Virus record (IMG/VR): IMGVR_UViG_3300021963_008766
Location: 1 to 43,650 of that record
Length of the DNA: 43,650 bases
DNA from: a virus
Strand: one strand, 5' to 3'
This document shows positions 1 to 43,650 of the stretch, one piece after another; the stretch's first letter is position 1; each line of letters begins with the position of its first letter. The position numbers were made by a program, and so were the translations under genes. The notes under the pieces were generated by a model. It searched no databases. It was given only the letters and a program-made list of their open reading frames with translations, and was not told the DNA's origin.

Positions 1-162
1 TCTTCTGGTACATCTGGAGAAAACGGACCATCAGGATCTTCTGGTACATCTGGTAATCAAGGTCCATCAGGATCTTCTGGTACATCTGGAGAAAACGGAC
101 CATCAGGATCTTCTGGTACATCTGGGGAAAATGGATCTTCTGGCACCTCCGGGGAAAATGGA
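1..162 (+). repeat. In-frame 36-bp repeats encoding collagen-like units
   Basis: Three near-identical 36-bp units (1-36, 37-72, 73-108), each encoding SSGTSGENGPSG or the variant with NQG in place of ENG, are followed by 27-bp shortened versions (109-135, 136-162). The unit continues upstream of the window. Copy number probably varies by recombination, a usual source of fibre-length variation. Confidence 0.85.
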
Positions 163-1305
163 TCATCCGGTACTTCTGGTGTATCCGGGGAAAATGGATC
201 ATCAGGTACCTCAGGGTCTTCGGGAAATGGATTCAATTGGATAGGAGGATGGATGGAATCAGGGGGTTTGAGTACTATCCCATACGGTTTAAATGATGTC
301 GTTTATTATAACGGAAGATCATACGTCTCGATAGTTTCTAATATTCCGATCGGGTCTCTTGCTCCGGATTTAAGTGGGGATTGGGATATTATGGCTTCAG
401 ATGGAGCTGCGGGAACTTCAGGATCTTCAGGATCTGGTGGTACATCAGGTACCTCTGGGGTAAGAGGTGAAAGATATAAAACAGCATCAACAGATTCATT
501 TACTTTAAATAATAGTGGCACACTTACAGTAGATACTGAATTAGGATACTCAATTGCACAGGAAATTATTATAGCAAATAATCTTTCAAATTATCAGATA
601 TCTCAAATTACATCGTATAACCCAACTACCGGAGTTATGGTGTTTGGTCCTCCAATATCTGTTGTCGGTAGTGGTACTTTTACATCTTGGACTATAAATT
701 TAAGTGGAGCTAGTGGTGGGGATGGCTCATCAGGAACCTCTGGGGTAAATGGTACATCAGGATCTTCAGGAACCTCAGGAACTAGGGGATCTTCGGGAAC
801 CTCTGGATCCTCCGGAACCTCAGGTTCTACAGGAACTTCGGGATCATCGGGATCATCAGGATCATCAGGATCCTCTGGAACTAGAGGATCTTCGGGAACC
901 TCAGGAAACACCGGTGCTTCTGGATCATCAGGTACAAGCGGAACTTCGTTTTCTTCCCCATATTCGGGAAATTTAAACGTAACCTCAGGTCAAGCATGGG
1001 TGAGCATAGACGCCAACGGTAATACAACTGCTAATACAACAGTAGATTGGAACACAGGAAATGTTCAGACATACACACTAAACGCAGCGACTACCACGTT
1101 TACTTTCAGTAATGGACAATCCGGAGGAACCTATATACTAATCATAAGACAAAATGCAGCAGGATCCCAAACAGTATCATGGCCAGCAGCAGTGACTTGG
1201 ACTGCAATTCCAACAATGACTGCAACTGCTAACCGTTATGACGTGTACACTTTCGTTTACGATGGGTCAAAATACTTTGGGGCATATGTTCAAAATTACA
1301 ATTAA
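1..1305 (+). CDS. Collagen-like tail fibre/adhesin protein (5' partial)
   Basis: The frame is open from base 1, so the protein starts upstream of the window; the ATG at 253 is internal. What is seen: a 12-residue Gly-Ser-Thr repeat (bases 1-162), then a short aromatic module at about 226-410 (a G-W-M/V start, DVVYYNGRSYVS, NIPIGSLAPD, a W-D end) that resembles CBM5/12-like carbohydrate-binding modules of phage fibres and recurs in the gene at 2795. A beta-rich stretch (about 450-710), a second collagen-like G-x-y block rich in GTSGSSG (about 715-945) and a C-terminal beta domain ending in FVYDGSKYFGAYVQNYN follow. Known: Gly-x-y repeats with such modules are typical of phage tail fibres and form trimeric stalks. 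Inferred role: receptor-binding fibre or adhesin. The LamG gene follows 3 nt after the stop, so they are probably co-expressed. Confidence 0.8.
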   Translation, partial: SSGTSGENGPSGSSGTSGNQGPSGSSGTSGENGPSGSSGTSGENGSSGTSGENGSSGTSGVSGENGSSGTSGSSGNGFNWIGGWMESGGLSTIPYGLNDVVYYNGRSYVSIVSNIPIGSLAPDLSGDWDIMASDGAAGTSGSSGSGGTSGTSGVRGERYKTASTDSFTLNNSGTLTVDTELGYSIAQEIIIANNLSNYQISQITSYNPTTGVMVFGPPISVVGSGTFTSWTINLSGASGGDGSSGTSGVNGTSGSSGTSGTRGSSGTSGSSGTSGSTGTSGSSGSSGSSGSSGTRGSSGTSGNTGASGSSGTSGTSFSSPYSGNLNVTSGQAWVSIDANGNTTANTTVDWNTGNVQTYTLNAATTTFTFSNGQSGGTYILIIRQNAAGSQTVSWPAAVTWTAIPTMTATANRYDVYTFVYDGSKYFGAYVQNYN

Positions 1306-2794: not shown

Positions 2795-3613
2795 ATGCCA
2801 AATACTATGACCTGGAAAGGATCCTGGGTTGGGAATGGTTCCAACCTAAGTGTCTTTGCGTATATTAAGGAAGATGCAGTTAAACATAATGGCATAGTAT
2901 ACATAAGTACTGCTAACAATATTCCCATCGGATCTCTTAGTCCAGATTTAGACATGGAAAATTGGAACGTTCTTGTTACCGATGGGGTTTCAGGGGCTTC
3001 TGGCGAAACCGGTGCTTCGGGATCTTCTGGTACCTCAGGAGAAGCAGGTATATCTGGTACCTCTGGTGAAAATGGATCGCACGGGACGTCAGGAACGTCA
3101 GGTGGTATTGGCCTACCAGGTACATCAGGTACATCAGGACAAGACGGATCTTCTGGATCTGCAGGAACAACTGGATCTTCAGGCTCAACCGGTACTTCCG
3201 GATCTGCTGGAAGTTCGGGAACTAGCGGTATGACAGGTACAAGCGGAACTTCTGGAGCTTTTACCGGAACTCTTACATTTACCCAAGGCACAGACATTCC
3301 ATCCGCATCTACAGTAAATGATTATAATATATCAGCAGGATCTCTTTTTACAATTACAGGTACCACTGCATCTAGCATAACCGGGTTTTCGAACGGGGTA
3401 ATCGGTAGATATATGCTAGTTGTAAACGGTACAGATAAAAACCAGACATTCCAACAAGAAAATTCAGGATCTTTAGCACCAAATAGACTAGTTTTAGGGG
3501 TTTCTAATAAAACTATAGGAATCAACCAGACCGCAACTTTTATTTACGTTGGGGGATTGAGTATAGGAGGGGCGCCAAATCAGGCAAGATGGATTTTAAC
3601 TGCAGTTACATAA
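2795..3613 (+). CDS. Collagen-like fibre protein with CBM-like N-terminus
   Basis: 272 aa. Residues 1-65 hold the same aromatic module as the first fibre gene (TWKGSWVGNG, DAVKHNGIVYIS, NIPIGSLSPD, NWNVLVTDG), resembling the CBM5/12-like modules of phage fibres. Residues about 67-153 are a collagen-like G-x-y block rich in GTSG, and residues 154-272 form a beta-rich tip ending QARWILTAVT. The start is well placed behind the promoter-like GGATATATAA. The near-copy of the N-terminal module shows gene duplication within the fibre cluster. The likely role is a trimeric fibre or fibre accessory in host recognition; the exact role cannot be read from sequence. Confidence 0.75.
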   Translation: MPNTMTWKGSWVGNGSNLSVFAYIKEDAVKHNGIVYISTANNIPIGSLSPDLDMENWNVLVTDGVSGASGETGASGSSGTSGEAGISGTSGENGSHGTSGTSGGIGLPGTSGTSGQDGSSGSAGTTGSSGSTGTSGSAGSSGTSGMTGTSGTSGAFTGTLTFTQGTDIPSASTVNDYNISAGSLFTITGTTASSITGFSNGVIGRYMLVVNGTDKNQTFQQENSGSLAPNRLVLGVSNKTIGINQTATFIYVGGLSIGGAPNQARWILTAVT

Positions 3614-7222: not shown

Positions 7223-7794
7223 TGGACTTCAAGATAGAGATAAGAAATGCCATAGAGAGTGCTGGATCCCCTGCAAAACTTGCGGAGGAGAGCTTTTTGC
7301 ATTACAGCAAAAATTACTCAGTTCTTAAGTCTTCCGATCCTATAAAAAGCTTAATACAAGGAAGAATCTACGCATTTTATTATGATTCCGAACTAAAAGC
7401 TGAAAAAGGATTTATAAACAGAAGACCTATAGTATTTTTAGAATCAAGGGAGATAACTCCAACTAAAAGCATAATTAGGGGGATAGATCTTATTCTTTTA
7501 ACCCCCAGAGACAGAACAAACTTTTTCATTAGATTGCATGCTATTTACGGAAAAATCATGGATCAGAACGAAAAAAAGGATAGATCTGCGCAGATGCCTT
7601 TAAAATTTGATTCAGAGATGTTAGAAACTTTAATGGGTGGTATCAAGTATAATCATGCATACACTGGCTATAAGATGGAAAAAATTAAGGGACTAAAAGA
7701 AATTGAGAGAGAAGAATGGAAGCATTTAGTTTACCTAAACACCAAATCTATAGAGGGGGCTGCTTTGAACGATATATATAACAAATATCAATAA
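7222..7794 (+). CDS. Conserved T4-like phage protein of unknown role
   Basis: 190 aa, not firmly recognised. It has a GRIYAFYYDSEL segment (about residues 48-59), then a short hydrophobic strand RPIVFLES and GIDLILL, a pattern I associate with small conserved proteins next to gp4/portal in marine T4-like phages. Its place between gp4 and gp20 suggests a head-completion, neck or baseplate protein. It shares the A of TAATG with genes on both sides, so it is part of the same coupled message. T4 gp53 or gp2 were considered by position, but no motif supports either. Confidence 0.6.
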   Translation: MDFKIEIRNAIESAGSPAKLAEESFLHYSKNYSVLKSSDPIKSLIQGRIYAFYYDSELKAEKGFINRRPIVFLESREITPTKSIIRGIDLILLTPRDRTNFFIRLHAIYGKIMDQNEKKDRSAQMPLKFDSEMLETLMGGIKYNHAYTGYKMEKIKGLKEIEREEWKHLVYLNTKSIEGAALNDIYNKYQ

Positions 7795-9416: not shown

Positions 9417-11138
9417 ATGGCAGGATTCATAGACAATTTTTCACAGAACAACCCTAACATGGGGCGTATACTTCGTGCTGTGAGCAAAATCGGAAGCTTC
9501 GGAATGGAGTATAAGGATCTTGTTGTGAAGAATTCTCAAGCTATTGGTGTATCTGAAGCTATGATGAGACAAAGATTATCTTTAACAGATTCAGATGAGG
9601 ATTTCGTTTTTAGTTTAGCAGCAGCAGATACAACAAGTAGAAAGTATATTGCTTATTTTGATAAGGACTATCCATATAAAAGAGATTTCTTAAGAAGCTT
9701 TGCTCTTAATGCAGAGATTGAATGGATTCTTGATATACTTGCTGATGAAGCTATTGTTTATGATGACAGAAATTTCTGTTGCTCTCTTTCCTTAGTTAAT
9801 ATGGATCTAAAAGATGAAGTAGCAGACGCATTAAGAGAAAACTTCAGAAAGATCTACGTTTCACACGGATTCAATAATGGCATCTCAGCATGGCAGTATT
9901 TTAGACAATTCTTAATCGATGGATTTTTATCTTTTGAGATAGTTTATTCGGATGACGGAAAACAAATAGTTGGATTTAAAGAATTAGATCCAGTTTCTTT
10001 AACCCCTTCAGTTGAAAGAACACCAGGCGGGAAAACGGTTCAAATTTGGTATCAATATTATAATGATAGCGTAAGAGAAAGAAAATTATACGATTCGCAA
10101 GTGATCTATGTTTCTTTTGCTAACGGTAACAGCACAAGCAGAACAAGTTATGTTGAAAGATTAATCAGATCACATAATTTATTGAAGATCATGGAGCATA
10201 CCAGAATTATCTGGAATGTTATGAATGCTTCATTCCGTTTGAAGATGACAATACCAGTAGGATCAAGATCACCACAGAAGGCTAAAGAGACTTTAGGTGA
10301 ATTGATGACTATGTACAAAGAGGACATCAAGCTTAACACCGATTCTGGTGAATTGAGTATTAACGGTAGACCAAACTTACAATTCTACAAAAACTATCTT
10401 TTCCCAGTTCAGGGCGGGGAATCACCTAAGGTAGAAACAATTAATAATGCAGGACCAAATCTAAATGTGATAGATGCTGTTGTTTATTTCTTTAATAAAT
10501 TAAAAGCAGATTCTAAAATTCCATTTAACAGATTTGCTGCAAGATCCGGTGGTACAGTAGGTACTTATAAGATTGGTGCAGAATCTGCAGAAAGAGACGA
10601 GATCAGGTACAACAAGTTTATCAATAGAATCAGATCAATCTATCAAGAAATTCTTTTGAAGCCTTTATGGATTCAAATGACACTGGATTATCCAGAGCTT
10701 GATAGCGATCCTGTTTTTAGAACTCAGCTTGGACTTAAATTTAATTCTGACAATCAATTTGGTGAATCAAAAGAGATTGAACAATTAATTAAAAAGATTG
10801 ACTTTATAGCTGGACTTTCTGAGATCAAAGAAAAGAAAGGCGAAGAAGAATTACCTTACTTTAGTCAAGACTTCCTTATCGATAAATTCCTTGGATTAAC
10901 CAATGAAGATAGAAGGGTTAACAACATCTATAAAAAGAAGGAAGAGGAAGAAGGTAAAGAAGCTGCAAAAATGGAAGCATCAGCAGCTCCTGCTTCCGGA
11001 GGTGGCGAATCAGCTGCACCTGCCGCAGAAGCCGGCGCAGAGGAAGCAGCACCAGCAGCAGAAACTGAAGCAGCACCAGCAGAGCCAGCAGCTACCCCAG
11101 AACCTGCCCCAGCAGCGGAAGAGGCACCAGCCCCTTAA
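9417..11138 (+). CDS. gp20: Portal protein gp20, copy B (tandem paralogue)
   Basis: 573 aa and colinear with copy A along the whole core: both start MAGF, both have IGSFGM, VVKNSQA, DEAIVYDD, GFKELDP, LYDSQ, ERLIRS, IMEHTR, SPQKA and LLKPLWIQ. Differences cluster near residues 50-62, around the insertion-like loop at 335-355 and in the tails. Copy B ends in a long Ala/Pro/Glu tail (PAAEAGAEEAAPAAETE type) while copy A has a Lys/Ala/Glu tail. No frameshift is visible in either, so both look functional. Starting 3 nt after the copy A stop, it is surely co-expressed. Either a mixed ring or a specialised second ring is possible. Confidence 0.9.
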   Translation: MAGFIDNFSQNNPNMGRILRAVSKIGSFGMEYKDLVVKNSQAIGVSEAMMRQRLSLTDSDEDFVFSLAAADTTSRKYIAYFDKDYPYKRDFLRSFALNAEIEWILDILADEAIVYDDRNFCCSLSLVNMDLKDEVADALRENFRKIYVSHGFNNGISAWQYFRQFLIDGFLSFEIVYSDDGKQIVGFKELDPVSLTPSVERTPGGKTVQIWYQYYNDSVRERKLYDSQVIYVSFANGNSTSRTSYVERLIRSHNLLKIMEHTRIIWNVMNASFRLKMTIPVGSRSPQKAKETLGELMTMYKEDIKLNTDSGELSINGRPNLQFYKNYLFPVQGGESPKVETINNAGPNLNVIDAVVYFFNKLKADSKIPFNRFAARSGGTVGTYKIGAESAERDEIRYNKFINRIRSIYQEILLKPLWIQMTLDYPELDSDPVFRTQLGLKFNSDNQFGESKEIEQLIKKIDFIAGLSEIKEKKGEEELPYFSQDFLIDKFLGLTNEDRRVNNIYKKKEEEEGKEAAKMEASAAPASGGGESAAPAAEAGAEEAAPAAETEAAPAEPAATPEPAPAAEEAPAP

Positions 11139-15513: not shown

Positions 15514-17574
15514 ATGACAGAACTAACCGATTTAAACCTTCAATCCGTACTAAATTCACCGGATTATAGACTAACAACAGAATCTAATTTTCAACAGATT
15601 CAGCAGGCGATAGATTTATTGCAGACTGCTTTTGGGATCGAATTCGATCCTAACCCAACTATCAATTCGCAAAATGCGACATTTACACTTGACATATTAA
15701 AATCTAATAGTGTTAAGTTACCTGCTATTGGAGCAACAAAAATCAGCTTAGATGGAACAAATGGTGGCATTATAGGATCTTCCATAAACGTTTCTAAAAA
15801 TGCATTTATCGGTGGGGATCTTTTACTTTACAATGAAACCGGAAGCGATGGTAGAATCAAATTCAGCGTGGATAAGGTTAACGATCAAATTAAAACTCCG
15901 GAGGTAGGACAAATAAGATTCACAGGTAGTGCTTTTCAAGGATATGCTTTTCAGGACGAGGTTTCTTCTAAATTTTCATTTACTATAGGATCAACAGGAT
16001 CTGGAAATTTTACACTATCATACAACGGATCTTCTATTATAACTATACCTTGGCAAGGAACTGCATATCTAACAGCTAATAGAATAGTCTCTGCTGTAGC
16101 AGACATTTCAGATATAACCAATATATCAGGGCCAGCAATAAAAGCGTCATCTTCAATAGGCACGGTAACAATAGAATCATTACCAGGATTTGCTGATGCT
16201 ATGAACGGAGTTGCAGTTTCAATATCTGCATCAGGCATGACAATTACTCCATCATCTGGTAATATGTCTGATGGTATAGATGGAACAGCAAGATGGGTTA
16301 ATTTCTTTACTGGAGAATCAGGATCTACTGGAACTAGTGGATCCTCAGGATCATCTGGGGAAGAAGGACCATCAGGATCTTCAGGAACATCAGGGGGTAA
16401 CGGAACATCAGGAACATCAGGAACAAGAGGATCGTCAGGAACCTCCGGAGAATCTATACCAGGAACTTCTGGATCTGCTGGAACATCGGGATCCACGGGA
16501 ACTTCCGGATCTGCAGGAACCTCTGGACAAACCGGGACATCAGGTACATCTGGGACATCCAGTGATCAACCAGCGGGAATCTATTCAGCAATATCAACAA
16601 CTGTTTTATTTGTAGCTAACGGAAACAGAAGCATAATAACTACGCCAAATCTTCCATGGGTTGGTGGGGAAACCATAACACTTGTTGCTAAAGAAGACCC
16701 TTCCGCTACAATGACAGGAACTATCGCATCTTACACACAATCTAATGGATTGATGAATTTTCTTGCAACGTCCTCTACCGGAAGCGGAACATACGGGACT
16801 TGGTACATTGATATGTTACCGCTCGGGTCTAAAGGAATTTTAGTTGGATCAACATCGGATATATTGGCAACACCCTCTCCGGTTCCTGGAATGCTTGGAT
16901 ATTCTAGTACAGATAATGTAATGGCATTTTATAATGGAACAAATTGGATAAAGATCGCAGAGAATGGCATATTAACATCGCCATCTCCTACACCGACACC
17001 AACACCTGCTCCGACACCAGCGCCAACACCTGCTCCGACACCAGCACCACCAACACCGGAGCCACCAACACCTGCTCCGACACCAGCGCCAACACCTGCT
17101 CCGACACCAGCGCCAACACCTGCTCCGACACCTACACTTAGCGGTGCCCCTGGAGCTGTTTATACGGGGGATTGGTATTTCTATACAAGTGAAGGTGCAG
17201 TAACCCCTCCATTTACACCAGATAATGTTGGAGATATTATCTTTGCAATAGACCAAGGGGCAACATACGCAGCGACATATAACCCGAGCTTTTTCCAAAA
17301 CACTGAGGTGTATTTTAATATTGCTGATAGTTATGGCATGGATAAAACCACGGAATTAACTGGATTGAAAAATAATGGAGGATATTTATACTTATCCCAA
17401 CAAAATCAATACAGCAAATATCAATTTGATATTAACGATCTTAACATTTCAGGATCAACAGCTAGTTTCACGGTAAACAGCGGGTCAGCTAACGATGCAA
17501 CGATTGTTTTACAAACTGGAATCAGCTATAACAACTATGAACCGGTATTGATTTTTATAGAGGTTAATCCATAG
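15514..17574 (+). CDS. Collagen-like and proline-rich tail fibre protein
   Basis: 686 aa. An N-terminal helical/attachment region (1-60) is followed by beta-rich repeats (60-270). A collagen-like block (about 270-348, bases near 16320-16560) is rich in GTSGSSG triplets. A middle beta domain (about 350-485) precedes a proline hinge of PTPAP repeats (about 490-540), and a C-terminal beta domain begins [17 protein letters not shown]. The order attachment region, stalk, hinge and tip is typical of a phage fibre. The Ser/Thr density of the stalk and the Thr-Pro hinge resemble O-glycosylated mucin-like segments. Its own late promoter lies upstream. It is the third collagen-like fibre gene in the window. 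Confidence 0.75.
16981..17133 (+). repeat. Thr-Pro-Ala-Pro coding repeat (hinge)
   Basis: Tandem imperfect 12- and 24-bp units (acacctgctccgacaccagc type) encode PTPAPTPAP with one PPTPEPPTP interruption. The repeat is in frame and inside the fibre gene, so it is protein-coding, not a CRISPR or origin repeat. Confidence 0.85.
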
Positions 17575-18137: not shown

Positions 18138-19051
18138 AAATTAAAAAACTAAATGAGCAATTTGCTCAGTCTTTTTCCGGAGACGGATTTAATAGCTCTA
18201 ACGGGGTTTTTAAAGTTAAGTATAAACCTTTTGATGATTTATCGCAGGCTAAAGGAAGAGAGATACATCCATACGATCATATTAAGGGAGAAGAATATCA
18301 AATAGGTGATATAGTTTTAGTTAGACTTAATACCAAAAAGAAAAAAATAAGAGCGGAGGTTCTGGCATCAACAAGAACAGACGACGGAAAAGGAACTAGA
18401 TTCAAGGTGAGAAGCTTACAATCTAAAAAGATCTATACCGTTCCTTCCTATGCTTTAGAATTTTATGACGATAGAGGGCATCTGGACAAATCAAAGCAAG
18501 GTACATCAGCTATGAGCAACAAGGAAAAATTTATAACATCATTGAAGTACAATAATGGTAATTTTATTTGGGGATCAATGGAATCTAAGAATAATGATAT
18601 GAGAACAGATATGCTATTAAAAGAAGGTGATTCTATCTTAGAAAGACCTAGTATTATAGATCCTTCCATTAAAGTTGTTTTAATAGATAATAATCATCCA
18701 GATTACAGCCTTCATATAGACAATTTTAAAAAACTTGGGGGTATTTACACAGTTCCAGAAAACAAAAGTATTTACATCCATAAGGAAGATCCTAGTTTTT
18801 CAAAGTTCAACGATAGCCACTTGATTGCAATTGAAGCAGTGGAAATAGCAAAGATGTTATCAAAAGATTCTTCAGTTGATGAAAAATACAGTGATGTTCT
18901 TGCAGCTCAAATTCTTAGAAACAAAGGGCACAGAGAATCATATAAAATGATAGCTTCTAATTTTTTAAAGAAGCATGGGGTTTCTTATGGAGAGGCAGCA
19001 GACGAATTTGTTCCTTCTATGAAACAACACTTACCAGAAAGAGAAATGTAA
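18134..19051 (+). CDS. Hypothetical protein with KOW/Tudor-like segment
   Basis: 305 aa, family not recognised. Residues about 52-112 (EYQIGDIVLVRLNTKKKKI, then RFKVRSLQSKKIYTVPSYAL) look like a small KOW/Tudor-type barrel. The C-terminal half has SHLIAIEAVEIAKML at about 230-244, in the place where gluzincin metallopeptidases carry HExxH, followed by a D-x-x-AA-helix pattern (KYSDVLAAQILRNKGH). The zinc ligands are absent, so if related it is a pseudoenzyme; this link is weak. It overlaps the previous gene (ATGA) and joins the next by TAATG, so it is mid-operon. Confidence 0.6.
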   Translation: MKIKKLNEQFAQSFSGDGFNSSNGVFKVKYKPFDDLSQAKGREIHPYDHIKGEEYQIGDIVLVRLNTKKKKIRAEVLASTRTDDGKGTRFKVRSLQSKKIYTVPSYALEFYDDRGHLDKSKQGTSAMSNKEKFITSLKYNNGNFIWGSMESKNNDMRTDMLLKEGDSILERPSIIDPSIKVVLIDNNHPDYSLHIDNFKKLGGIYTVPENKSIYIHKEDPSFSKFNDSHLIAIEAVEIAKMLSKDSSVDEKYSDVLAAQILRNKGHRESYKMIASNFLKKHGVSYGEAADEFVPSMKQHLPEREM

Positions 19052-19752
19052 TGTCCATTAATAGAATAAGGAGAATTCCGTTTCCTGAGAACATTAAAAA
19101 TGAAAGTCAGAAAATGGTTGAACCCGAAAATTTTAGAAAGAGAGATATCGGAGAATATCAGAAATTCATCAATAAGCACCCGGACGAATCTTTCGTTGTT
19201 TGTGCATGTGGTGTTTCCCTTAACGATTACACGAATTTTGATAATCACGTAACCATTGGGGTAAATGATGCAGGCAAACAGGTTTGGTGTAAGTACCTGG
19301 TTGTTGTTAACGAACCTAGTACTTTTAAATTTAAAAGATGGCCAGACGTTCAAAGCAATAATTCAGAATTTGTCTTCACACATTTAAGCAATCTGCCAAT
19401 AGATAATCCAGAAAGAAGAATAGTTGTTAATCTCGGAAAGTACGAAGGGATTGATCTAGATAATTATGGATTCATAGATTACACCACAAATTCTCCATAC
19501 ATGGCTATTGTTATAGCATATCAAATGGGAGCTAAAAAAATAGCTTTGGTTGGAGTGGATTTCACAGAGAACCATTTCTTTGGCGAAACAGGAAGACACC
19601 AAATCATGAGAGAAATAGAAAGAATAAAAGAGCAATACTCCAATTTGGGAAAGGCATTGACGGAGAAAGGAATTAAAATTGCTAACCTTTCAAAAACGAG
19701 TCTTATTGAGTCCTGGCCCAAAATGACACTGGAAGAATTCGAAACTATCTAG
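19051..19752 (+). CDS. DUF115/MptE-like Rossmann protein (possible glycosyltransferase-like)
   Basis: 233 aa. Residues about 47-72 (SFVVCACGVSLNDY, then HVTIGVND) and 147-173 (NSPYMAIVIAYQMGAKKIAL, then VGVDF) match the pattern of DUF115/MptE-like and CST-type sialyltransferase-like Rossmann proteins: a G-x-x-SL loop, an I-x-VN strand, and an A-x-x-MGAKKI-x-L-x-G-x-D end. Known members transfer sugars (Maf/PseE) or make pterin pyrophosphate. Substrate and reaction are unknown here. The glycosyltransferase bank at the window end makes a sugar-transfer role plausible. TAATG coupling to the upstream gene. Confidence 0.6.
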   Translation: MSINRIRRIPFPENIKNESQKMVEPENFRKRDIGEYQKFINKHPDESFVVCACGVSLNDYTNFDNHVTIGVNDAGKQVWCKYLVVVNEPSTFKFKRWPDVQSNNSEFVFTHLSNLPIDNPERRIVVNLGKYEGIDLDNYGFIDYTTNSPYMAIVIAYQMGAKKIALVGVDFTENHFFGETGRHQIMREIERIKEQYSNLGKALTEKGIKIANLSKTSLIESWPKMTLEEFETI

Positions 19753-33766: not shown

Positions 33767-34306
33767 ATGTCCCTTTTTGTTATAGAAGGAGCCAGAAAGT
33801 CGGGAAAAACATTTTTTATTAATTCCCAAAACTGGATCCCAGTATTCAAGTTCGATTTTAATGGACTGTACACTTCTTTAGATCTTCCCGCAGAAGGTGA
33901 GAAGACACACCACCTAGGATTGGGTAAAGAACTAATGGTTCAACAATTGAACAGAGATGGGTTTCTCCCTCATCTTATAATGGATAGAGGGGTTATAACC
34001 AATTCCGTATGGGGAGTATTAAATAACAGGGTAAAATTAAGATCAGTACTAGACGAGCTCGATTACATGCTAGAGAAAGATCTTTTTAGAAATACTATAT
34101 TCTTTCATATTAAGGGTACTTCCCCAGAGAAAAGAGAAAAGGATGTGTGGGATTACATGGACGAAAAAATACCACAGGAGACAGAGCTATTCGAACAGCT
34201 ATTTGATTACATCGAAAATGGCGGGGTTAAGATCTTTAGAATAGAGAATAAATTTGATGCTGAATCTCTAGCATCATTTCAAACTATAATTAAGAATTTA
34301 AAATAA
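33767..34306 (+). CDS. P-loop nucleotide/deoxynucleotide kinase-like protein
   Basis: 179 aa. P-loop GARKSGKT at residues 8-15 and a DRGVITNSVWG segment at about 73-83, which resembles the DRx motif of thymidylate/deoxynucleoside kinases. A charged lid region follows (KGTSPEKREKDVWDY), as in that fold. The phosphate acceptor cannot be told: thymidylate, another deoxynucleotide, or a small molecule. It is coupled by TAATG to the AsnB-like gene, so it may supply that pathway. Confidence 0.65.
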   Translation: MSLFVIEGARKSGKTFFINSQNWIPVFKFDFNGLYTSLDLPAEGEKTHHLGLGKELMVQQLNRDGFLPHLIMDRGVITNSVWGVLNNRVKLRSVLDELDYMLEKDLFRNTIFFHIKGTSPEKREKDVWDYMDEKIPQETELFEQLFDYIENGGVKIFRIENKFDAESLASFQTIIKNLK

Positions 34307-35739
34307 TGTGTGGAATCCTAATTGCTCATAATCCTTCACAAGCAAGGATTAATTCTATTGCTCACAGAGGGATAGAATTTTCTACCCACTCTGATGCTTC
34401 TGGTTTAACCCTATGCCACCACAGGCTACCTATCCAAACAGCGGTTGGCGATGGATGGATTCAGCCGGTTGAAATAGCAAAGGATAAGTATCTTTTATTC
34501 AACGGGGAAATTTTTAATTATCCCACAGAATTATATGACTCTGATACGGCATATCTAGCTAGTCTTTTTTCAACTTGCCTAGACTTTTCATCGGTTGAAA
34601 TGTTTAGCGCTTTGTATGAGCCACATATTAAGAGCTGGGACGGTTTTTGGGCTATTTGTCTGGTTGACATGAAAGCTAAGAGTGTTATTTGCTTCACTGA
34701 TCCATTAGGAAAGAAATGCCTATATTATAACGACCTAGGTGAAATCTGCTCAGAAATGAAGGGTCTTATCAATGGAAACTCATTTTTGGATTCATCCTTT
34801 ATGGGAGGTGTGAGAAAATGGGGATATGTTCCCAATGAATCCACACCATTTGAGAATATCCAAAAGATCAAACCAAATTACTTTTATCAATGGAATTTTG
34901 CTGCTCCTGATTTTAAGAAAACGTACGGCCCTTATTTCTCATTTAAACCACCCAAATTTGAGTTTAATTCTGAAGATGAGTTACTAGATTGGACATGGAA
35001 TAAAATTGAAGCAGCGACAAAGAATAGGCTGTTAAGCTTAGACTATCCGATATCCATACTACTCTCTGGCGGATTGGACTCCTCTATCATAGGGGGATTA
35101 CTCCTTAAGCTGGGTGCAGATGTCAGCTGGTATACCATAAACAATGGACCGGACAATGATTACGTTAGGGAATGTGAGAAGTACTGGGACGTCAAGGTAA
35201 ATCAGTTGGAATACACAATGGATGAAAGTAGCATGAATCTGGATGAGCTATATTTCAAATGGAATGAATCTCCCATTGATTTAGGAAGCGTGGTACCACA
35301 ATACCTTTTATTTGATGCTATCAAGAAAGGCACAGATACCCGCATAGTTTTATCCGGGGATGGTGCAGACGAAATGTTCGGGGGTTATAGAAGAATAGAC
35401 GAGTACGATTCTCAGGGATCTGATGTTTTCCACGAATTAACATACTATCATTTACCAAGACTTGATAAAATGAGTATGGCTCACACATTAGAACTTAGAA
35501 ATCCTTTTTTAAATCTGGAATTACTACAGATGGCTTTAAATCTTCCAATGGAATTAAGAAAGCATAAAACAATTCTCAAAAAGACCTTTAGAGGATTAGT
35601 ACCAGATTCTGTTATAGATCGTAAAAAACACCCACTTAAAAATGAAAAAATAGTGAAAGATCCAATGGAATATAGGATTGAAGCTATTGAAAGATTTAAA
35701 AAGGGATACGTAGAATTTTTAGAAAAAGGAAGCTATTAA
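34306..35739 (+). CDS. asnB: Asparagine synthetase B-like glutamine amidotransferase
   Basis: 477 aa. N-terminal nucleophile Cys2 (MCGILIAHN), HHRLPIQ and NGEIFNYPTEL match class II glutamine amidotransferases; the PP-loop SGGLDSS (254-260) and SGDGADEMFGGYRR match the AsnB synthetase half. Bacterial AsnB is about 550 aa, so this is shorter but complete in its key sites. The reaction would be ATP-dependent transfer of ammonia to a carboxylate (asparagine, or a different acid, as in peptide- or sugar-modifying relatives). It meets the minus-strand ATP-grasp gene tail to tail with 4 nt overlap and no terminator. Confidence 0.92.
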   Translation: MCGILIAHNPSQARINSIAHRGIEFSTHSDASGLTLCHHRLPIQTAVGDGWIQPVEIAKDKYLLFNGEIFNYPTELYDSDTAYLASLFSTCLDFSSVEMFSALYEPHIKSWDGFWAICLVDMKAKSVICFTDPLGKKCLYYNDLGEICSEMKGLINGNSFLDSSFMGGVRKWGYVPNESTPFENIQKIKPNYFYQWNFAAPDFKKTYGPYFSFKPPKFEFNSEDELLDWTWNKIEAATKNRLLSLDYPISILLSGGLDSSIIGGLLLKLGADVSWYTINNGPDNDYVRECEKYWDVKVNQLEYTMDESSMNLDELYFKWNESPIDLGSVVPQYLLFDAIKKGTDTRIVLSGDGADEMFGGYRRIDEYDSQGSDVFHELTYYHLPRLDKMSMAHTLELRNPFLNLELLQMALNLPMELRKHKTILKKTFRGLVPDSVIDRKKHPLKNEKIVKDPMEYRIEAIERFKKGYVEFLEKGSY

Positions 35740-37226
35740 TAAAGCTCTATTCCAGCTAGGGGTTCACCCTTAGCATTAAGTGGAGAATAATCTTCAGGCT
35801 CATCAGTTAATAGGAAGGTTTTACTTGCGTCTACCACTAAACCAGCTATTTCCATAAATCCTCTATTGATAAGCATTGGTGTGCTTTTGTTTGTTCTATC
35901 AACAACAGAGAATTTCACTTTTTTATAAACCATCTTCCCAAATTCTATGTCTAGTAGAATAACTGGTCTTTTATCGGTTTGATCTCCAACTTCTGCGTGA
36001 GAATATTCCATTATTCGATTACTGAATGATTTACCACCAACTGTCCAGTTTAAAAATCCATCCGAAGATTCTTCAGAAGAATCTGCATGAAGAGAACATG
36101 CAATAGCACCATTTCCAGTATCCAATTTTCCAATGAATTTACCGATGCCTTTGACGTCAAAGATTTCTCTGAATCCTACCATTTTTCTAGGATAGTTCCA
36201 GTTCTTTTTGTTTAAAATGAATTCTAGAATGATTCCGGTCACATCCAGTCCTGTTGCTTGTTCGATACCATCTGTTCCTGGTGATGCATTCACCTCTAGA
36301 ACGTACGGTACGCCACTATTTTTACCTATGATAATATCTACACCACACCAAGAGCATTCAGTCGCTTTAGCAGCTCCTATTGCGATTTTTTCTATTTCTT
36401 TTGGAATTTCCACTGCTTCTGCTATTCCCCCCAATGAAACGTTGGTTCTGAAGTCATTCTCTACTCTGTTTCTTTTCATGGAAGCTATGATAGTGTAATT
36501 ATCACCATCGCCAGTGGAGTTTCTGCTTCCAACAACATGTATTCTTAAATCGTAATCAGCTTCTATCTTCTCTTGAACTATTAATTCAGTTTCTGGAGAA
36601 AGCTTCCACATTGTTTGAAGTGTGGATATAAGGGATTCTTTAGAATCTATCTGAAATACGCCGATACCTTTGGTTCCGCTTAGTGTCTTAACAACAACTG
36701 GATATTTGCCGCCAACTTTATTGATAGCGTTTTCTATATCATCCTCTGAAGATATTAAAGCAGTCTTAGGGGTTGGTATTCCTTTTTCCTGAAGCTTTTG
36801 GACTGTGTCCAGTTTATCCTCGCAAAGAAGAACTGCTTTAGGGGAATTAACAGACACGAATCCCAGGGATTCTAATTTCTCAAAGAATTTTACTGCTGCA
36901 GTGGAATTTATAGAAGACCTTCTAGCAAGGACAACTGCATTTTTAATGTCAATCTCATGCTTTATTTGACTTCCCTTGTTTCTAATAAAGAAGCTTCCGG
37001 ACTCTGTTTTTTCTATTTCACCTTGGGAGGTGTTGATGATTATACATTTAAATCCCAGAGAACTAGATTTCTCCATCATTTTTTTAACAGTCGGTGCAAG
37101 TGTATTTTTCTTGGACTCCAACTTGGTTGTTAAAATAATAAGGGAAATTGGCTTTTTAAATCCAGCCTTTGGTTTTCCAGCCCCCTGAAAAACAAAATCC
37201 TCTTGTTCGGTCAATAAATTATCCAT
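35736..37226 (-). CDS. RimK-type ATP-grasp ligase fused to retropepsin-like protease domain
   Basis: 496 aa. Residues about 25-345 are a RimK-like ATP-grasp: the VVKTLSGTKGIGV ATP-binding loop (about 178-190), KIEADYDLRIHVVG, and the metal site YVLEVNASPG (308-317). Known relatives add glutamates to protein ends. Residues about 350-496 match the RimB/DUF785 retropepsin-like domain: FIGKLDTGNGAIACSLHA (DTGN at 369-372, where DTGA is usual), then ADRP-like PVILLDIEFG and MLINRGFMEI. In bacteria RimK and RimB are usually two proteins. Fusion here gives ligase and trimmer in one chain. A GGGGATATATAG motif precedes the start. Confidence 0.88.
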   Translation of the reverse strand: MDNLLTEQEDFVFQGAGKPKAGFKKPISLIILTTKLESKKNTLAPTVKKMMEKSSSLGFKCIIINTSQGEIEKTESGSFFIRNKGSQIKHEIDIKNAVVLARRSSINSTAAVKFFEKLESLGFVSVNSPKAVLLCEDKLDTVQKLQEKGIPTPKTALISSEDDIENAINKVGGKYPVVVKTLSGTKGIGVFQIDSKESLISTLQTMWKLSPETELIVQEKIEADYDLRIHVVGSRNSTGDGDNYTIIASMKRNRVENDFRTNVSLGGIAEAVEIPKEIEKIAIGAAKATECSWCGVDIIIGKNSGVPYVLEVNASPGTDGIEQATGLDVTGIILEFILNKKNWNYPRKMVGFREIFDVKGIGKFIGKLDTGNGAIACSLHADSSEESSDGFLNWTVGGKSFSNRIMEYSHAEVGDQTDKRPVILLDIEFGKMVYKKVKFSVVDRTNKSTPMLINRGFMEIAGLVVDASKTFLLTDEPEDYSPLNAKGEPLAGIELY

Positions 37227-39001: not shown

Positions 39002-39568
39002 TTGAAACATCTCCTAACTTATCGCGGTTTATTTGAAAGCACCTCTGCAGGATCTCAGGACAGGGGGTCTTCCGATGTTCCACCTTTTAAGTTTGCTATC
39101 AACTTCGACCCGAGACTGGGATACACAAAACATGATTTTACCCACGATCTAACAGAAATTTATAAGGAATACACAGGAAGAGAGCGTAAGGAATTAATGG
39201 ATGTTGTTTTTAAAAGCTGTGGGATTTTTAGAATCTCTGATATATTAGATTTGTCACAGGATAGAGTGGATGGACTAATAAAAGATGTTGAAAGATACAT
39301 GGAGAGTAAATCCGAGTACAAACTAGAGATATTTCCCGATGGATTTATTCTTTGCTTTGAAGGACTTAAACATAGAGGAAGAACCTGCGATGTCTATTAT
39401 TCCCCGTCGGAAGCTAAAGTTAAAATATCCTATACAGATTTATATCCCGAAAACGAAGAGATCGTTATTGGAATTGACGGATTTTCCCCAGTATCTGTTG
39501 GGATTAAGCCCGATGATTTTTTAGCAACAGTTGAAAAGTGTGATAACTATTCAAGAAAAATCTCATAG
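39002..39568 (+). CDS. Hypothetical protein, 188 aa (TTG start)
   Basis: Start is TTG at 39002 (MKHLLTYRGLFES), chosen because it sits behind a late-promoter motif and the N-terminus again ends in LFES, the segment seen in NPIFES and NPLFES of the large head-module proteins. The middle is mixed alpha/beta (FKFAINFDPRLGYTKHDFTH). It includes a positive RGRT loop. No family is recognised. It meets the minus-strand 104-aa gene tail to tail with 6 nt overlap. Confidence 0.55.
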   Translation: MKHLLTYRGLFESTSAGSQDRGSSDVPPFKFAINFDPRLGYTKHDFTHDLTEIYKEYTGRERKELMDVVFKSCGIFRISDILDLSQDRVDGLIKDVERYMESKSEYKLEIFPDGFILCFEGLKHRGRTCDVYYSPSEAKVKISYTDLYPENEEIVIGIDGFSPVSVGIKPDDFLATVEKCDNYSRKIS

Positions 39569-39877
39569 CATAGAAAGGTAGTCCCTATAGTTATTCACTA
39601 TAAATTCGATGGATTTTTCCTTGATCAAATCAAAAGAGATTTCATCCTCCCCTTTACTTTTTTCCAGGTCCACTATAATAAAGCAGTCTGTGTATTTGGA
39701 GAAATTTTTGATTTCCTTTTCAAAGAACCCGTATATCTTCCTGTCCGACTTTGTGTAATTTGGTAAAGGATCCATTAGTTCACTTAGTAATAAACCCACC
39801 TGCTCTGTTTCATCCACTTTTATAATGGAAAACAGCCAGGAGTAAATCCTCATCTTTTTATTTTTGTTGTTCCTCAT
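39563..39877 (-). CDS. Small hypothetical protein, 104 aa
   Basis: Family unknown. Basic N-terminus (MRNNKNKKMRIYSWLFSIIK), then acidic helices and a KSIEFIVNNYRDYLSML end. It shares the A of TAATG with the 137-aa gene upstream, so both are on one message. Likely partner or small accessory of that protein. Confidence 0.5.
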   Translation of the reverse strand: MRNNKNKKMRIYSWLFSIIKVDETEQVGLLLSELMDPLPNYTKSDRKIYGFFEKEIKNFSKYTDCFIIVDLEKSKGEDEISFDLIKEKSIEFIVNNYRDYLSML

Positions 39878-40290
39878 TACAACATATCCCCTGTCCTTGG
39901 AAAAAAACTTTTCGTTGTGATTTTAAATTCTAGGGATTTCTCTATTTCTTCTAAGTATGGATTTATTTTTTGCATGAAGTTTTCCAATACCTCTAGGGTT
40001 CCGTCTAGAATTAGCTCTATTTCATCATTCCCGTCTACCAGTGTAATTAATTCATGAGCCTTCTCTATTTCATCGTTGGTCATGTTTTTAACTGTTCTAT
40101 CACTTAGCTTATTAAATTTTTGGAAATTCTTAATGTCATTATAAACACGGGTAATCTTTTGGATTTGTTCAGAATACTTCTTCTCACCCAGATCTGTTTC
40201 AACAGATTGCAAAAAGTCCATTAGAATATAATACTTATGCTCTGCGTCAATAGGATCCTGTAAAAACCAATATGGTTGTAAATTTTTCAT
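39877..40290 (-). CDS. Hypothetical protein, 137 aa
   Basis: Starts MKNLQPYWFLQDPIDAEHKY; helical through the middle (LMDFLQSVETDLG, VYNDIKNFQKF) and ends in KSFFPRTGDML. The N-terminal PYWFLQDPID part looks conserved-like for a phage protein, but I cannot name it. It leads a two-gene message behind an AT-rich GGGTTATATATT motif. Confidence 0.5.
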   Translation of the reverse strand: MKNLQPYWFLQDPIDAEHKYYILMDFLQSVETDLGEKKYSEQIQKITRVYNDIKNFQKFNKLSDRTVKNMTNDEIEKAHELITLVDGNDEIELILDGTLEVLENFMQKINPYLEEIEKSLEFKITTKSFFPRTGDML

Positions 40291-40303
40291 TGCTTACTAC
40301 TAT

Positions 40304-40315
40304 AATATATAACCC
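40304..40315 (-). promoter_or_regulatory. Possible late promoter variant (minus strand)
   Basis: GGGTTATATATT on the minus strand, about 14 nt before the start at 40290. The G-A-T of the core is replaced by G-T-T, so it is weaker than the others. The remaining gap to 40436 holds no gene or clear element. Confidence 0.35.
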
Positions 40316-40436
40316 AAAAACGGCTTGATTCCTCCATTTAAAAAAATATTTCTGATTTTTGGAAACTTTCCGCTAAAACACAACTAAGATTGTTATCTAT
40401 TAACATCCTGGGTTATGAATATATCTATAGTCTCTT

Positions 40437-41021
40437 ATGAGCCCCTTTCTAGTAATAGCTTACTACACCTTAGGAAACCAATACGAATCTCTCTCGGAAA
40501 ATCTTAAAAAATCTTGCAAGGATTTTAATCTCCCCTTGTTTTTAAAGCCTATAGAAAATCTAGGTTCTTGGTCTAAGAACACACACTATAAAGCAAACTT
40601 TATTCAGGAGTGTCTTAGAAGATTTTCACAAAACTTAGTTTATGTTGATGTTGATGCAGTCTTTAGAAGCTATCCAAGTCTTTTCGAAGATCTAGAATGC
40701 GATATAGCATATAGGACAGAAAACTTCAAGTGGAGATCCAACGAGGCATTAAGTGGTACTATCTTTCTTAATAATAACGACAAGATAAAAGCTTTCGTTC
40801 AAACTTGGATAGAGATGAACGATAAAACTCCAGCAGTTAAGCTTAAGCCAGAAACCTGGGAACAAGCTAACATGCAAAGAGCATTATCTGAAAGCAAGGA
40901 ATTGGAGTATTATAATCTACCGCCAGAGTACACTTACATATTTGATCATACTAAAAGACTGTATCCTGATATACCCCCAGTTATAGAGCATTTTCAGGCT
41001 TCTAGAAAGGCTGATATATAA
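40437..41021 (+). CDS. GT-A-type glycosyltransferase-like protein, paralogue A
   Basis: 194 aa. The DxD motif (NLVYVDVDAVFRSYPSLFED, about residues 66-85) and the EALSGTIFLNN segment resemble nucleotide-diphospho-sugar transferases (the family including PF03407-type proteins). GSWSKNTHYKANFI parallels the second gene. Length is close to a bare catalytic domain. Starts at ATG 40437 with no SD. A GATATATA promoter for the next gene overlaps its stop. Substrate and acceptor unknown. Confidence 0.7.
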   Translation: MSPFLVIAYYTLGNQYESLSENLKKSCKDFNLPLFLKPIENLGSWSKNTHYKANFIQECLRRFSQNLVYVDVDAVFRSYPSLFEDLECDIAYRTENFKWRSNEALSGTIFLNNNDKIKAFVQTWIEMNDKTPAVKLKPETWEQANMQRALSESKELEYYNLPPEYTYIFDHTKRLYPDIPPVIEHFQASRKADI

Positions 41022-41023
41022 AA
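41013..41023 (+). promoter_or_regulatory. Putative late promoter overlapping a stop codon
   Basis: GATATATAAAA; the last codons of the previous gene (GAT-ATA-TAA) form the motif. About 22 nt before the ATG at 41043. Confidence 0.5.
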
Positions 41024-41042
41024 AACAAAGAACCTTAATGTT

Positions 41043-42188
41043 ATGTCGTTGAAAAAAATAAGGAGATTGAGAAATCCATTTAACACTGTCTTTGGAAATA
41101 TCCCAGAAGTTCCTCAAAAAGAAGATAGTGAATATATGAAAAATCCACCTAAACCGCCCTCAAATGATTCTGATCTTCTGGATGAAATGCTTCCCCTAAT
41201 AGTTAGCTTCTATGCTGATTTTGAGAATAATAAATACTATGAAGGATTTGCAAAGGATCTTATTAAAAAATGTAGAGAGTTTGGGGTTTCATATGATATC
41301 TCTGAGGCCGAATCTAGAGGAAGTTATTCTGCAAATTGCTTAATGAAGCCAGAGTTTATCCTGGATAAATTGAAGGAGCACAAAAGACCCATACTCTGGA
41401 TGGACTGCGACACCCAGTTTAGGCTACCATTCAGTGATTTTAATAATGTGGAATCCGATATAGGAATGGCTACACACAGCGGTAACATGGAGGGTATAAA
41501 AGCATCACCTTTATACTTTAACTACACAGAGGGTGCATTCAGAATTATAAGAGAATGGGTAGTTCATTGCAGGGCTTGCTATACTAAAGGAATTATTGAA
41601 CTCGATCATGATGCTCTTAAGCATTATGTACTTAGGGTTTTATCTGGAAATTATAGTGCTTTTTTACTTAGTGAAAATTGGAACGACTTTGTTCAGGGTA
41701 AGTATATTAACAACGGAAATTCAAGGGTAACCGGAAAACAACAGGTACATCGCCAAGTAGGTGTAGATGATTCTATCAGGGAGAAATACAGTCAGGATGT
41801 CAAAAGATATAAATTATTCTTTGAAGACAATTCTGAAAGTTCATTTGAATCTGCTTTACAATTTCTGGGTACATTCTCGGGATACTCCAGGGTGGAGTTT
41901 ATATTCGATGTGTCTTTGGAAAAAATGGCTAAAACACCGGCGTTTGAAAAATTAAATATAGAAAGTGGCGGTTCGGTGTATTTCTCTAATCAAGACTTTG
42001 ATTCAACTTTCACTAGTCCCAATAGGATATCTCTAGGAATAGAGGGGGTTAATGGGATTGAAAAAGACTGGGATCTAAAAATAGAGAAAGAAATTGAATC
42101 CGGAAATAATCCATTACATTCCCTAAATTTCTATGATAGTGGCTTAGGAAAGATAAGAATAAAAACAAAAGGAAAAATATGGATTTAA
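41043..42188 (+). CDS. GT-A-type glycosyltransferase-like protein, paralogue B with extra C-terminal domain
   Basis: 381 aa. After a basic N-terminus, residues about 95-180 carry RGSYSANCLMKPEFI and PILWMDCDTQFRLPFSDF, the DxD-type site that lines up with paralogue A (YVDVDAVFRSYP). About residues 250-381 add a domain of unknown type with beta pattern (RVEFIFDVSLEKMAKTP, GGSVYFSNQDF). It probably makes or caps a glycan with its neighbours. It overlaps the fucosyltransferase-like gene by 10 nt. Confidence 0.68.
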   Translation: MSLKKIRRLRNPFNTVFGNIPEVPQKEDSEYMKNPPKPPSNDSDLLDEMLPLIVSFYADFENNKYYEGFAKDLIKKCREFGVSYDISEAESRGSYSANCLMKPEFILDKLKEHKRPILWMDCDTQFRLPFSDFNNVESDIGMATHSGNMEGIKASPLYFNYTEGAFRIIREWVVHCRACYTKGIIELDHDALKHYVLRVLSGNYSAFLLSENWNDFVQGKYINNGNSRVTGKQQVHRQVGVDDSIREKYSQDVKRYKLFFEDNSESSFESALQFLGTFSGYSRVEFIFDVSLEKMAKTPAFEKLNIESGGSVYFSNQDFDSTFTSPNRISLGIEGVNGIEKDWDLKIEKEIESGNNPLHSLNFYDSGLGKIRIKTKGKIWI

Positions 42189-43033
42189 TTAAGGGCATGG
42201 GATTACCATTCCCACCAGAGTTTTCTTCGTGTTCTAATCTTTCCCCTAAGTTGTTTAACTGGACGACAGAAGACGCAGAAGCTATTATTTATATAGATGA
42301 CAAAATATTAGACGGATTACAGACCCCAAGAAACGATTTTAAGTTTGGATGGCTTTGTGAGTCTAGAGAAATATCCATTAATATATTCGATACCATATCT
42401 CAAAACCCACAAAGGTTTAAAAACAAATATGCTGGAATATTTACCTGCGACTACGAGCTATTAAACTCCGATGATTTTTTTATTTATGCACCTCCTGGAT
42501 CAAATCTTCCCTGGACAAAACCCGAAGAGATGGGAATCTATGAAAAAAGTAAAATATGTTCTATGATTTCATCTGCCAAATCTAGAACATATGGACATCA
42601 TAAAAGATTAGAGGTTGCTGGTTTATTAAAGGATAGAATAGATTTATTTGGGGGTGCACACGGATCTCCTAAAATAGGTGAAGGATCCGGACCAAATCAA
42701 GATTGGTGGAGATCCAAACTGCCAGCAATAAAAGATTATATGTTTTCTATAACTTTTGAGAATGCAGTGTATGACAAGTATTACACCGAAAAGATAACAG
42801 ACTGTTTCGCAACAGGAACTATCCCGGTTTATTGGGGAACTAAAAAAGTGATTGAAGATTTTAATCAGGACGGAATAATATTCTTTGACGATATTAAAAA
42901 TGATATTGGAATATTATCAGAGGATTTATACAAATCAAAAATGTCTGCAATCCTGGATAATCTAAACAGAGTTAAGGTGTTAGAATCTGCAGATGACATC
43001 ATTTACAAAAAAATTAAATCATGCACAAAATAA
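42179..43033 (+). CDS. GT10 fucosyltransferase-like protein
   Basis: 284 aa. The GT10 signature runs at about 188-220: MFSITFENAVYDKYYTEK then DCFATGTIPVYWG, matching the family form (FxLxFENs...YvTEK...GtvPVyxG). Upstream, KICSMISSAKSRTYGH and RLEVAGLLKDRIDLFGGA match the donor-site pattern. Known GT10 enzymes add fucose with alpha-1,3/1,4 linkage from GDP-fucose; the sugar may differ here. Fused to its neighbours by overlaps on both sides. Confidence 0.8.
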   Translation: MDLIKGMGLPFPPEFSSCSNLSPKLFNWTTEDAEAIIYIDDKILDGLQTPRNDFKFGWLCESREISINIFDTISQNPQRFKNKYAGIFTCDYELLNSDDFFIYAPPGSNLPWTKPEEMGIYEKSKICSMISSAKSRTYGHHKRLEVAGLLKDRIDLFGGAHGSPKIGEGSGPNQDWWRSKLPAIKDYMFSITFENAVYDKYYTEKITDCFATGTIPVYWGTKKVIEDFNQDGIIFFDDIKNDIGILSEDLYKSKMSAILDNLNRVKVLESADDIIYKKIKSCTK

Positions 43034-43650
43034 CACTAGGAGCAGCCTCTAGAAACAGACCAGATAGAATGTCCGGTGTTATTAATAGCTGGATCTCTAG
43101 ATCTGTAAATAGAGAAAGAATAGAAATAATAATATCGATAGACGAAGATGATCCCACAATTGAGTCGTATAAATCTATAATAGAAAAAGATTCAAATAAT
43201 CTAGGAATTGATATAAAACTTTTAATCAATCAAAATTCCAATACTGTTCAAGCAATTAACCGAATAAAGGATTCTTTTACCGGTGATATTATAGTTATAT
43301 TTTCTGATGACACCGACTGTTTTCCTGGATGGGATGATGCTATTGATTCAGTCTATTCCAAAATGCCAGGAAGCTATATCATTAAAACGAGCGATGGTGT
43401 TGGAAAGTATCTAATAACTATGCCCATATTCACAAAGAGTTATTTAGATCACAAGCAGTGGATCTACTATCCAGCTTATGCACACATGTTCTGCGACACC
43501 GAATTAACCTGTGTTGCTTACATGGAGGAAAAAGTTATAGATGCATCTGATTTGGAATTCGCACATCTTCATTACACTCAGGGACATTCTGAAAAGGACT
43601 ATGTCGACGTAAAAAATCAAGATACTTTTTACGATGGGTTTAATATATTC
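43021..43650 (+). CDS. GT2-like glycosyltransferase (3' partial)
   Basis: 210 codons seen; no stop before the window end. Overlaps the GT10-like gene by 13 nt. MHKITLGAASRNRPDRMSGV at the start, IEIIISIDEDDP and GDIIVIFSDDTDCFPGWDDA (DxD-type metal site) are the GT2/GT-A pattern. The middle (AHMFCDTELTCVAYMEE) looks like the acceptor-side part of GT2. Likely the next enzyme in the same glycan pathway. Confidence 0.75.
   Translation, partial: MHKITLGAASRNRPDRMSGVINSWISRSVNRERIEIIISIDEDDPTIESYKSIIEKDSNNLGIDIKLLINQNSNTVQAINRIKDSFTGDIIVIFSDDTDCFPGWDDAIDSVYSKMPGSYIIKTSDGVGKYLITMPIFTKSYLDHKQWIYYPAYAHMFCDTELTCVAYMEEKVIDASDLEFAHLHYTQGHSEKDYVDVKNQDTFYDGFNIF

Follow-up and report, generated by a model that had tools for sequence, protein, structure and literature searches.

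A glycosyltransferase cassette with a GDP-fucose route in a Lak-like lineage of T4-like huge phages, and its candidate acceptors

Results

We analysed a 43.65-kb virus record from a T4-like phage (IMG/VR record IMGVR_UViG_3300021963_008766, 43,650 nucleotides; hereafter the window), which ends inside a bank of glycosyltransferase (GT) genes. The window end cuts a larger cassette, and the four GT genes within it are the 5′ part of about 9–12 genes. In window-lineage records in which no contig end interrupts the bank, the 3′ end is formed by the two enzymes of a guanosine diphosphate (GDP)-fucose route, GDP-mannose 4,6-dehydratase (GMD) and GDP-L-fucose synthase (GFS). We hold the existence of this cassette and its GDP-fucose route to be highly probable. 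As for the acceptor, we tentatively favour a virion protein that would carry a fucosylated glycan made by the phage, though only narrowly over modification of the host surface.

The first-pass annotation of the window had described four overlapping GT-like genes, namely two GT-A paralogues, a GT10-like and a GT2-like gene. All four open reading frames (ORFs; named here by their start positions, Table 1) were borne out, and two of the three junctions overlap, whereas 40437 and 41043 are separated by a 21-bp gap. The first gene matched PF03407 with an E value of 1.6e-4, barely above cut-off. The second gave no Pfam match; its product is 26% identical to that of the first (E 5e-10) and carries an Asp-x-Asp (D121/D123) that is invariant across 18 homologues. 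Modelled with AlphaFold, the product of 41043, the one paralogue whose fold was examined in this way, showed a GT-A fold with a pLDDT (predicted local distance difference test) of 86. Its best match by Z was PBCV-1 A064R (2p72; Z 14.5, root-mean-square deviation 3.4, 169 residues), followed by GT6-type enzymes at 12.9 or less, and the top Foldseek match was pneumococcal GlyE, which we take to be a serine-rich-repeat-protein GT. A modelled fold shared with A064R or GlyE says nothing decisive about the acceptor.

The third product matched PF00852 (E 3.5e-9, 37 bits, cut-off 23.9) over profile positions 11–100 of 182 only. Its closest solved structure is the H. pylori α1,3-fucosyltransferase (E 1.4e-9), with which the motif region aligned, and the GT10 residues E194, N195, Y201, T203, E204, K205, D208, F210, G213, P216 and G220 were invariant in 13 phage sequences, including cyanophages and other huge phages. 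With GMD and GFS predicted in the same cassette, transfer of fucose from GDP-fucose by this enzyme is plausible. The fourth ORF fell under the cut-off for PF00535 and matched a PHROG glycosyltransferase family (E 1e-11). NCBIfam gave no name for any GT in the window. Searching GenBank phages with the DNA of the bank returned only short matches within GT10, and a viral contig search by 41043 alone returned no confirmed relative, though 41043 homologues adjoin matches to 40437. Chance or misassembly was rejected as the origin of the bank, because it is syntenic across many independent contigs.

The continuation of the cassette was found in contig G007, which begins inside 43021–43650 and shares 99.4% identity with the final 157 bp of the window. 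We infer the join, the two sequences coming either from one population or from two very close ones. Next in G007 are a pyruvyl transferase, two methyltransferases, a protein without assignment, GFS and GMD, the latter two matching solved enzymes with E values of 2.5e-89 and 4e-121, respectively. The GMD and GFS pair lies outside the window itself and is encoded in G007, G001, G002, G004, G005, G009, G012 and G020. Hence the GDP-fucose genes for which the first-pass annotation had proposed a search are present, both in the overlapping contig and in window-lineage relatives with an uncut bank. By sequence, the order is GT-A, GT10, GT2-like and other transferases, then variable methyl-, pyruvyl- and acyltransferases, and finally GFS and GMD.

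The window lies in a huge-phage genome, as indicated by its collinearity with G001 (244,850 bp; major capsid protein (MCP) 96% and portal 95% identical) and likewise with G020 (219,355 bp). The gene at 27612 encodes the MCP (PF07068), and two portal-like genes, a prohead protease, a DNA ligase and a clamp loader were read from the sequences. In GenBank, the capsid relatives closest to this MCP are LR756500 (462 kb, 44%) and the Lak phages (39–40%). A T4-like huge phage of a Lak-like lineage carries together the bank, Ser/Thr-rich collagen-like fibres and a weakly assigned DUF115-like gene.

The 5′ genes and the 3′ GDP-fucose pair are constant in G001, G020 and other relatives, whereas the middle differs, with DUF5672, GT2, GT1-like, GT17, FkbM methyltransferases, a hexapeptide acyltransferase and a further epimerase among the genes seen there. 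Among the window, G001 and G020, identity was 87–96% for MCP and portal, 69–72% for GT10 and 48–55% for 41043. Against G003 the ranks were reversed, MCP, portal and protease being 38–45% identical, GT10 62–65% and GT2 62–67%. This flip of identity ranks indicates that the bank has a history of exchange or diversification separate from that of the structural genes. Within LR756500, an 836-residue protein with a 40437-like GT domain (L040:21208-23718) lies near a pyruvyl transferase homologue; this locus is an alternative form of the cassette, and no GT10 was found in it.

In the window lineage the bank is located between the head genes (portal, protease, MCP) and the tail genes. Likewise, in G003, whose genome is rearranged and whose MCP is only 39% identical, it is again directly between MCP/protease and baseplate-region genes, with the GDP-fucose pair about 75 kb from the bank.

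A 16-bp motif, TTGGGGATATATAAAG, precedes many operons and was present in 38% of intergenic regions as compared with 3.4% of shuffled ones, the motif having been fitted on the same data. When it was refitted without the bank, position weight matrix (PWM) scores reached 14–15 ahead of 41043 and of its homologues in G001 and G020, and 12–14 in two others, against a background of which 0.4–0.6% scored above 9. In the L009 bank the motif is visible by eye, and it stood before the second bank gene in all six of the related banks checked. Upstream of the first bank gene (40437) the motif is absent, and that gene has its own upstream region, conserved but different. Portal, protease, fibre and tail genes are also preceded by the motif, which was more frequent in the structural half (19/116 genes) than elsewhere (7/120; p 0.012). 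Within the window it lies 13–20 nt before starts such as those at 2795, 3870, 15514, 29472, 33767, 35736 (−), 37316 (−), 39002 and 41043. The motif is a candidate for the late promoter that these phages use; the T4-type late promoter TATAAATA was not found on the + strand of the window.

Three fibre genes of the window have Ser+Thr contents of 26–35%, compared with 14.6% over all window proteins. They had been described as packed with GTSGSSG and TPAP repeats; GTSG/GSSG repeats do occur in all three (1–1305, 2795 and 15514), whereas TPAP is confined to 15514, in nine copies. The G001 orthologue of 15514 (308 residues) has lost the collagen/TPAP part, yet G001 keeps the whole bank; in the G020 orthologue (838 residues) the collagen-like part is present. 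Between the first two fibre genes, positions 1309–2751 encode a lectin-like protein (Laminin_G_3 and fibrinogen C-like), a candidate host-binding tip. The DUF115-like gene noted earlier at 19051 is indeed present and conserved in relatives, but its assignment is weak: PF01973 scored 18.8 bits, below the cut-off of 34.6, and the PHROG match was to an α-2,3-sialyltransferase (E 3e-10). No sequence or profile match to this protein was found in the PDB, and its model (pLDDT 52) was too poor for a structure search.

Table 1. Position and basis of the bank genes and of other features in the window.
Feature	Position	Strand	Basis
Divergent intergenic region ahead of the bank, conserved in relatives	40291..40436	.	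Comparison with relatives
GT-A type glycosyltransferase 1, PF03407-like, bank gene 1	40437..41021	+	Profile match, invariant DVD motif, kept as first gene in relatives
Promoter-like motif ...TGATATATAAAA	41000..41030 (approximate)	+	PWM 14.8, 19 nt upstream of 41043
GT-A type glycosyltransferase 2, paralogue of 40437, additional C-terminal domain	41043..42188	+	Paralogy, Asp-x-Asp, model
GT10 (α1,3-fucosyltransferase-like), motif FEN...YYTEK..D.F..G..P	42179..43033	+	Profile, structure match, motif
GT2-like glycosyltransferase, cut by window end	43021..43650	+	Sub-cut-off PF00535, PHROG; complete relative of 257 residues in L003
Collagen-like fibre truncated by the window start (Ser+Thr 35%); candidate acceptor only	1..1305	+	
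Collagen-like fibre, Ser+Thr 29%; candidate acceptor only	2795..3613	+	
Fibre bearing collagen-like and TPAP repeats; its G001 orthologue lacks this part	15514..17574	+	
DUF115/sialyltransferase-like protein, weak assignment, conserved in relatives	19051..19752	+	

Discussion

We propose that host GDP-mannose would be converted to GDP-L-fucose by the cassette enzymes, and that soluble cytoplasmic enzymes would assemble a short fucose-containing oligosaccharide, which the products of the variable middle genes would lengthen and cap differently in each phage. By analogy with chloroviruses and some mycobacteriophages, the glycan may then be attached, while the virion is assembled, to one of its proteins (of capsid, tail or fibre).

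The absence of membrane segments bears on where such a glycan would be made. Over nine loci and G020, the maximum 19-residue hydropathy of the bank proteins was 1.47, whereas 31 of the 248 ORFs of G001 exceed 1.6, and by this measure no flippase, polymerase or Gtr-type membrane enzyme was found in the bank. Assembly in the cytoplasm is hence likely, with no encoded lipid-carrier step. This fits a virion protein or DNA as acceptor and still allows host lipid-linked precursors. Moreover, the predicted soluble enzymes, the place of the bank between head and tail genes (again in G003) and a motif common to virion operons all argue for a virion acceptor, to which we assign the largest share of probability, although less than half. 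The chlorovirus capsid system is a precedent, and the resemblance of the 41043 fold to A064R and GlyE points the same way without identifying the acceptor. What is left after the acceptors considered below falls to others.

Several observations weigh against a virion acceptor. No acceptor protein was identified, and collagen-like fibres and GT10 banks do not strictly co-occur. The motif also occurs outside the structural half. In G003, bank and structural genes are encoded on opposite strands, and the bank of the cyanophages S-SM2 and S-T4 is found near nucleotide-metabolism genes. Promoter class or timing is not decisive either, because the capsid GTs of chloroviruses are expressed early (PMC5408694). 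Furthermore, comparable cassettes have been read in print as O-antigen modification, both in cyanophages (PMC7824862, PMC9602691) and, for the GTs, in pelagimyophages (PMC7029224).

That published reading is the strongest competitor, possible rather than probable in our estimate: the cassette would remodel the host surface, adding fucose and caps to lipopolysaccharide (LPS) or capsule precursors and so altering the receptor and excluding competing phages. Constant ends and a swapped middle resemble a serotype locus, a Snodgrassella homologue of 40437 is located in an envelope-type cluster with GT25 (LPS), GT2, GT1 and an ABC transporter, and soluble GTs could use host lipid-linked precursors. 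However, the bank is without a membrane GT, flippase, polymerase or lipid-carrier enzyme, and both its head/tail placement and the virion-operon motif would be odd for an early exclusion role.

We consider it improbable that hydroxymethylated pyrimidines in phage DNA carry the glycan, as a defence against host nucleases. The first-pass annotation had named modified bases as the alternative to fibre glycosylation, and the lineage does hold a clue to them: G001, G002 and G020, in a region outside the window fragment, encode a thymidylate synthase (TS)-family enzyme closest to cytidine monophosphate 5-hydroxymethylase (E 4e-4 for G001); in the G001 and G002 copies, Asp replaces Asn at the base-recognition position. 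The predicted pyrimidine hydroxymethylase is at L047:3166-3945 (G001:103166-103945), with homologues in G002 and at G020:72104-72880; its phage relatives bear the annotation thymidylate synthase or pyrimidine hydroxymethylase. More distantly, G003 has a deoxycytidine monophosphate (dCMP)-hydroxymethylase-like gene (T4 gp42, E 4e-14; L036:1468-2361, G003:59810-60703) and LR756500 a similar one (151723-152298, −), both with Asp. These predictions suggest modified DNA in the lineage, and viral GTs that place oligosaccharides on 5-hydroxymethylcytosine have reportedly been described (Pyle 2024, cited in PMC12619734). Single GTs of the lineage could act on DNA. However, the bank needs no hydroxymethylated bases, since six phages with GT10 cassettes lack such an enzyme: four cyanophages gave no TS-family match, and LR756501 and LR756504 have a TS with Asn. 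In addition, about 70 kb separate the hydroxymethylase from the bank, its gene in G001 does not carry the shared motif, and a T4 gp1-type deoxynucleoside monophosphate kinase was not found in the relatives searched. The gene at 13468 of the window is guanylate-kinase-like. HMUDK_hel had no match in the relatives, nor did it match any positive control, so absence is not shown. On these gene predictions, DNA as the acceptor appears weakened.

A special case of the virion-protein reading, put forward in the first-pass annotation, would place the glycan specifically on the Ser/Thr-rich collagen-like fibres. A bank able to build a glycan is there, as are three such fibres in the window and many collagen matches in G001, G007 and G020; moreover, the fibre genes 2795 and 15514 carry the promoter-like motif common to the GT gene 41043. 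The fibres are nevertheless not established as the acceptor, and we think them an unlikely one, as S-SM2, S-T4, S-SSM7 and LR756504 have GT10 banks with no collagen match over cut-off and the Ser/Thr-rich part of the 15514 fibre is missing in G001. Collagen-like repeats are also common in phage fibres without such a bank. It is a rather doubtful, slightly wider proposal that this lineage coats its collagen-like fibres or its capsid with a self-made, capped fucose oligosaccharide, whose structure is switched between close relatives by exchange of the middle genes. If true, virion glycan serotypes comparable to those of chlorovirus capsids would result.

The kind of cassette is already known from cyanophages, and the huge-phage fucose cassette adds another member. 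Nucleotide-sugar enzymes, several GTs and a homologous GT10 are clustered here as in cyanophage-type glycan cassettes, while the membrane flippase and membrane GT of Gtr/O-antigen serotype conversion are lacking from the bank. The large T4-like cyanophages S-SSM7, S-SM2, S-SCSM2R and S-T4 have homologous GT10s (36–45% identity) in clusters with epimerases, methyltransferases and several GTs that vary between relatives, as here, and the S-SCSM1 cassette has GMD, GDP-fucose synthase and fucosyltransferases (PMC9602691). In contrast, the first two GT-A genes of the bank were not found by sequence in the cyanophage cassettes, and the present cassette belongs to a lineage of Lak-like huge phages, where it is flanked by head and tail genes.

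In PBCV-1, the capsid is glycosylated by means of GMD/GMER and soluble GTs that the virus itself encodes (PMC5408694). The likeness lies in a virus-coded GDP-fucose route, soluble GTs, a predicted methyltransferase domain and A064R as the closest fold to 41043 by Z; it is one of function and fold rather than of demonstrated sequence homology, and in PBCV-1 the GT genes are scattered and the acceptor is proven. Glycosylated mycobacteriophages, whose virions reportedly receive glycans from phage-coded GTs (Freeman 2023, cited in PMC12619734), are a functional precedent for action on virion proteins, to be set beside the present cassette by function only; we know of no GDP-fucose cassette in them. 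As to the DNA hyperglycosylation of T-even phages and metaviromes, the likeness would be the pyrimidine hydroxymethylase predicted in the window lineage, but here it is not linked to the bank and GT10 banks occur without it. A further comparison is with the moraphages, large aquatic phages with several core GTs; four of their core GT groups have an undetermined acceptor (PMC12619734).

Phage glycan cassettes have long been annotated as LPS genes, mostly without a tested acceptor. The present set is compact and conserved, its GDP-fucose route is complete, its enzymes are all predicted to be soluble, its position between head and tail genes is fixed and its middle is swapped, which makes the acceptor directly testable here. 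Were it the virion, phages would have glycan serotypes.

Other features of the window

No RNA family from Rfam was matched in the window or in four relatives. Two adjacent portal-like (gp20) paralogues, at 7794–9413 and 9417–11138, are about 52% identical and are kept in G001 and G020. Ahead of the bank, an asparagine synthase-like gene (34306–35739, +) and a RimK-like ATP-grasp gene (35736–37226, −) are 76–93% conserved beside the bank in relatives. At 39563–40290 (−) an ORF is split by a frameshift into 137 and 104 residues, where G001-type relatives have an intact ORF of 242 residues; the frameshift probably reflects either a recent mutation or a homopolymer error. Finally, the first two bank genes occur, at 67–77% identity to L005/L006, on a 30.6-kb contig (L114) binned in a Bacteroidetes metagenome-assembled genome, a weak hint at a Bacteroidota host or else a case of mis-binning.

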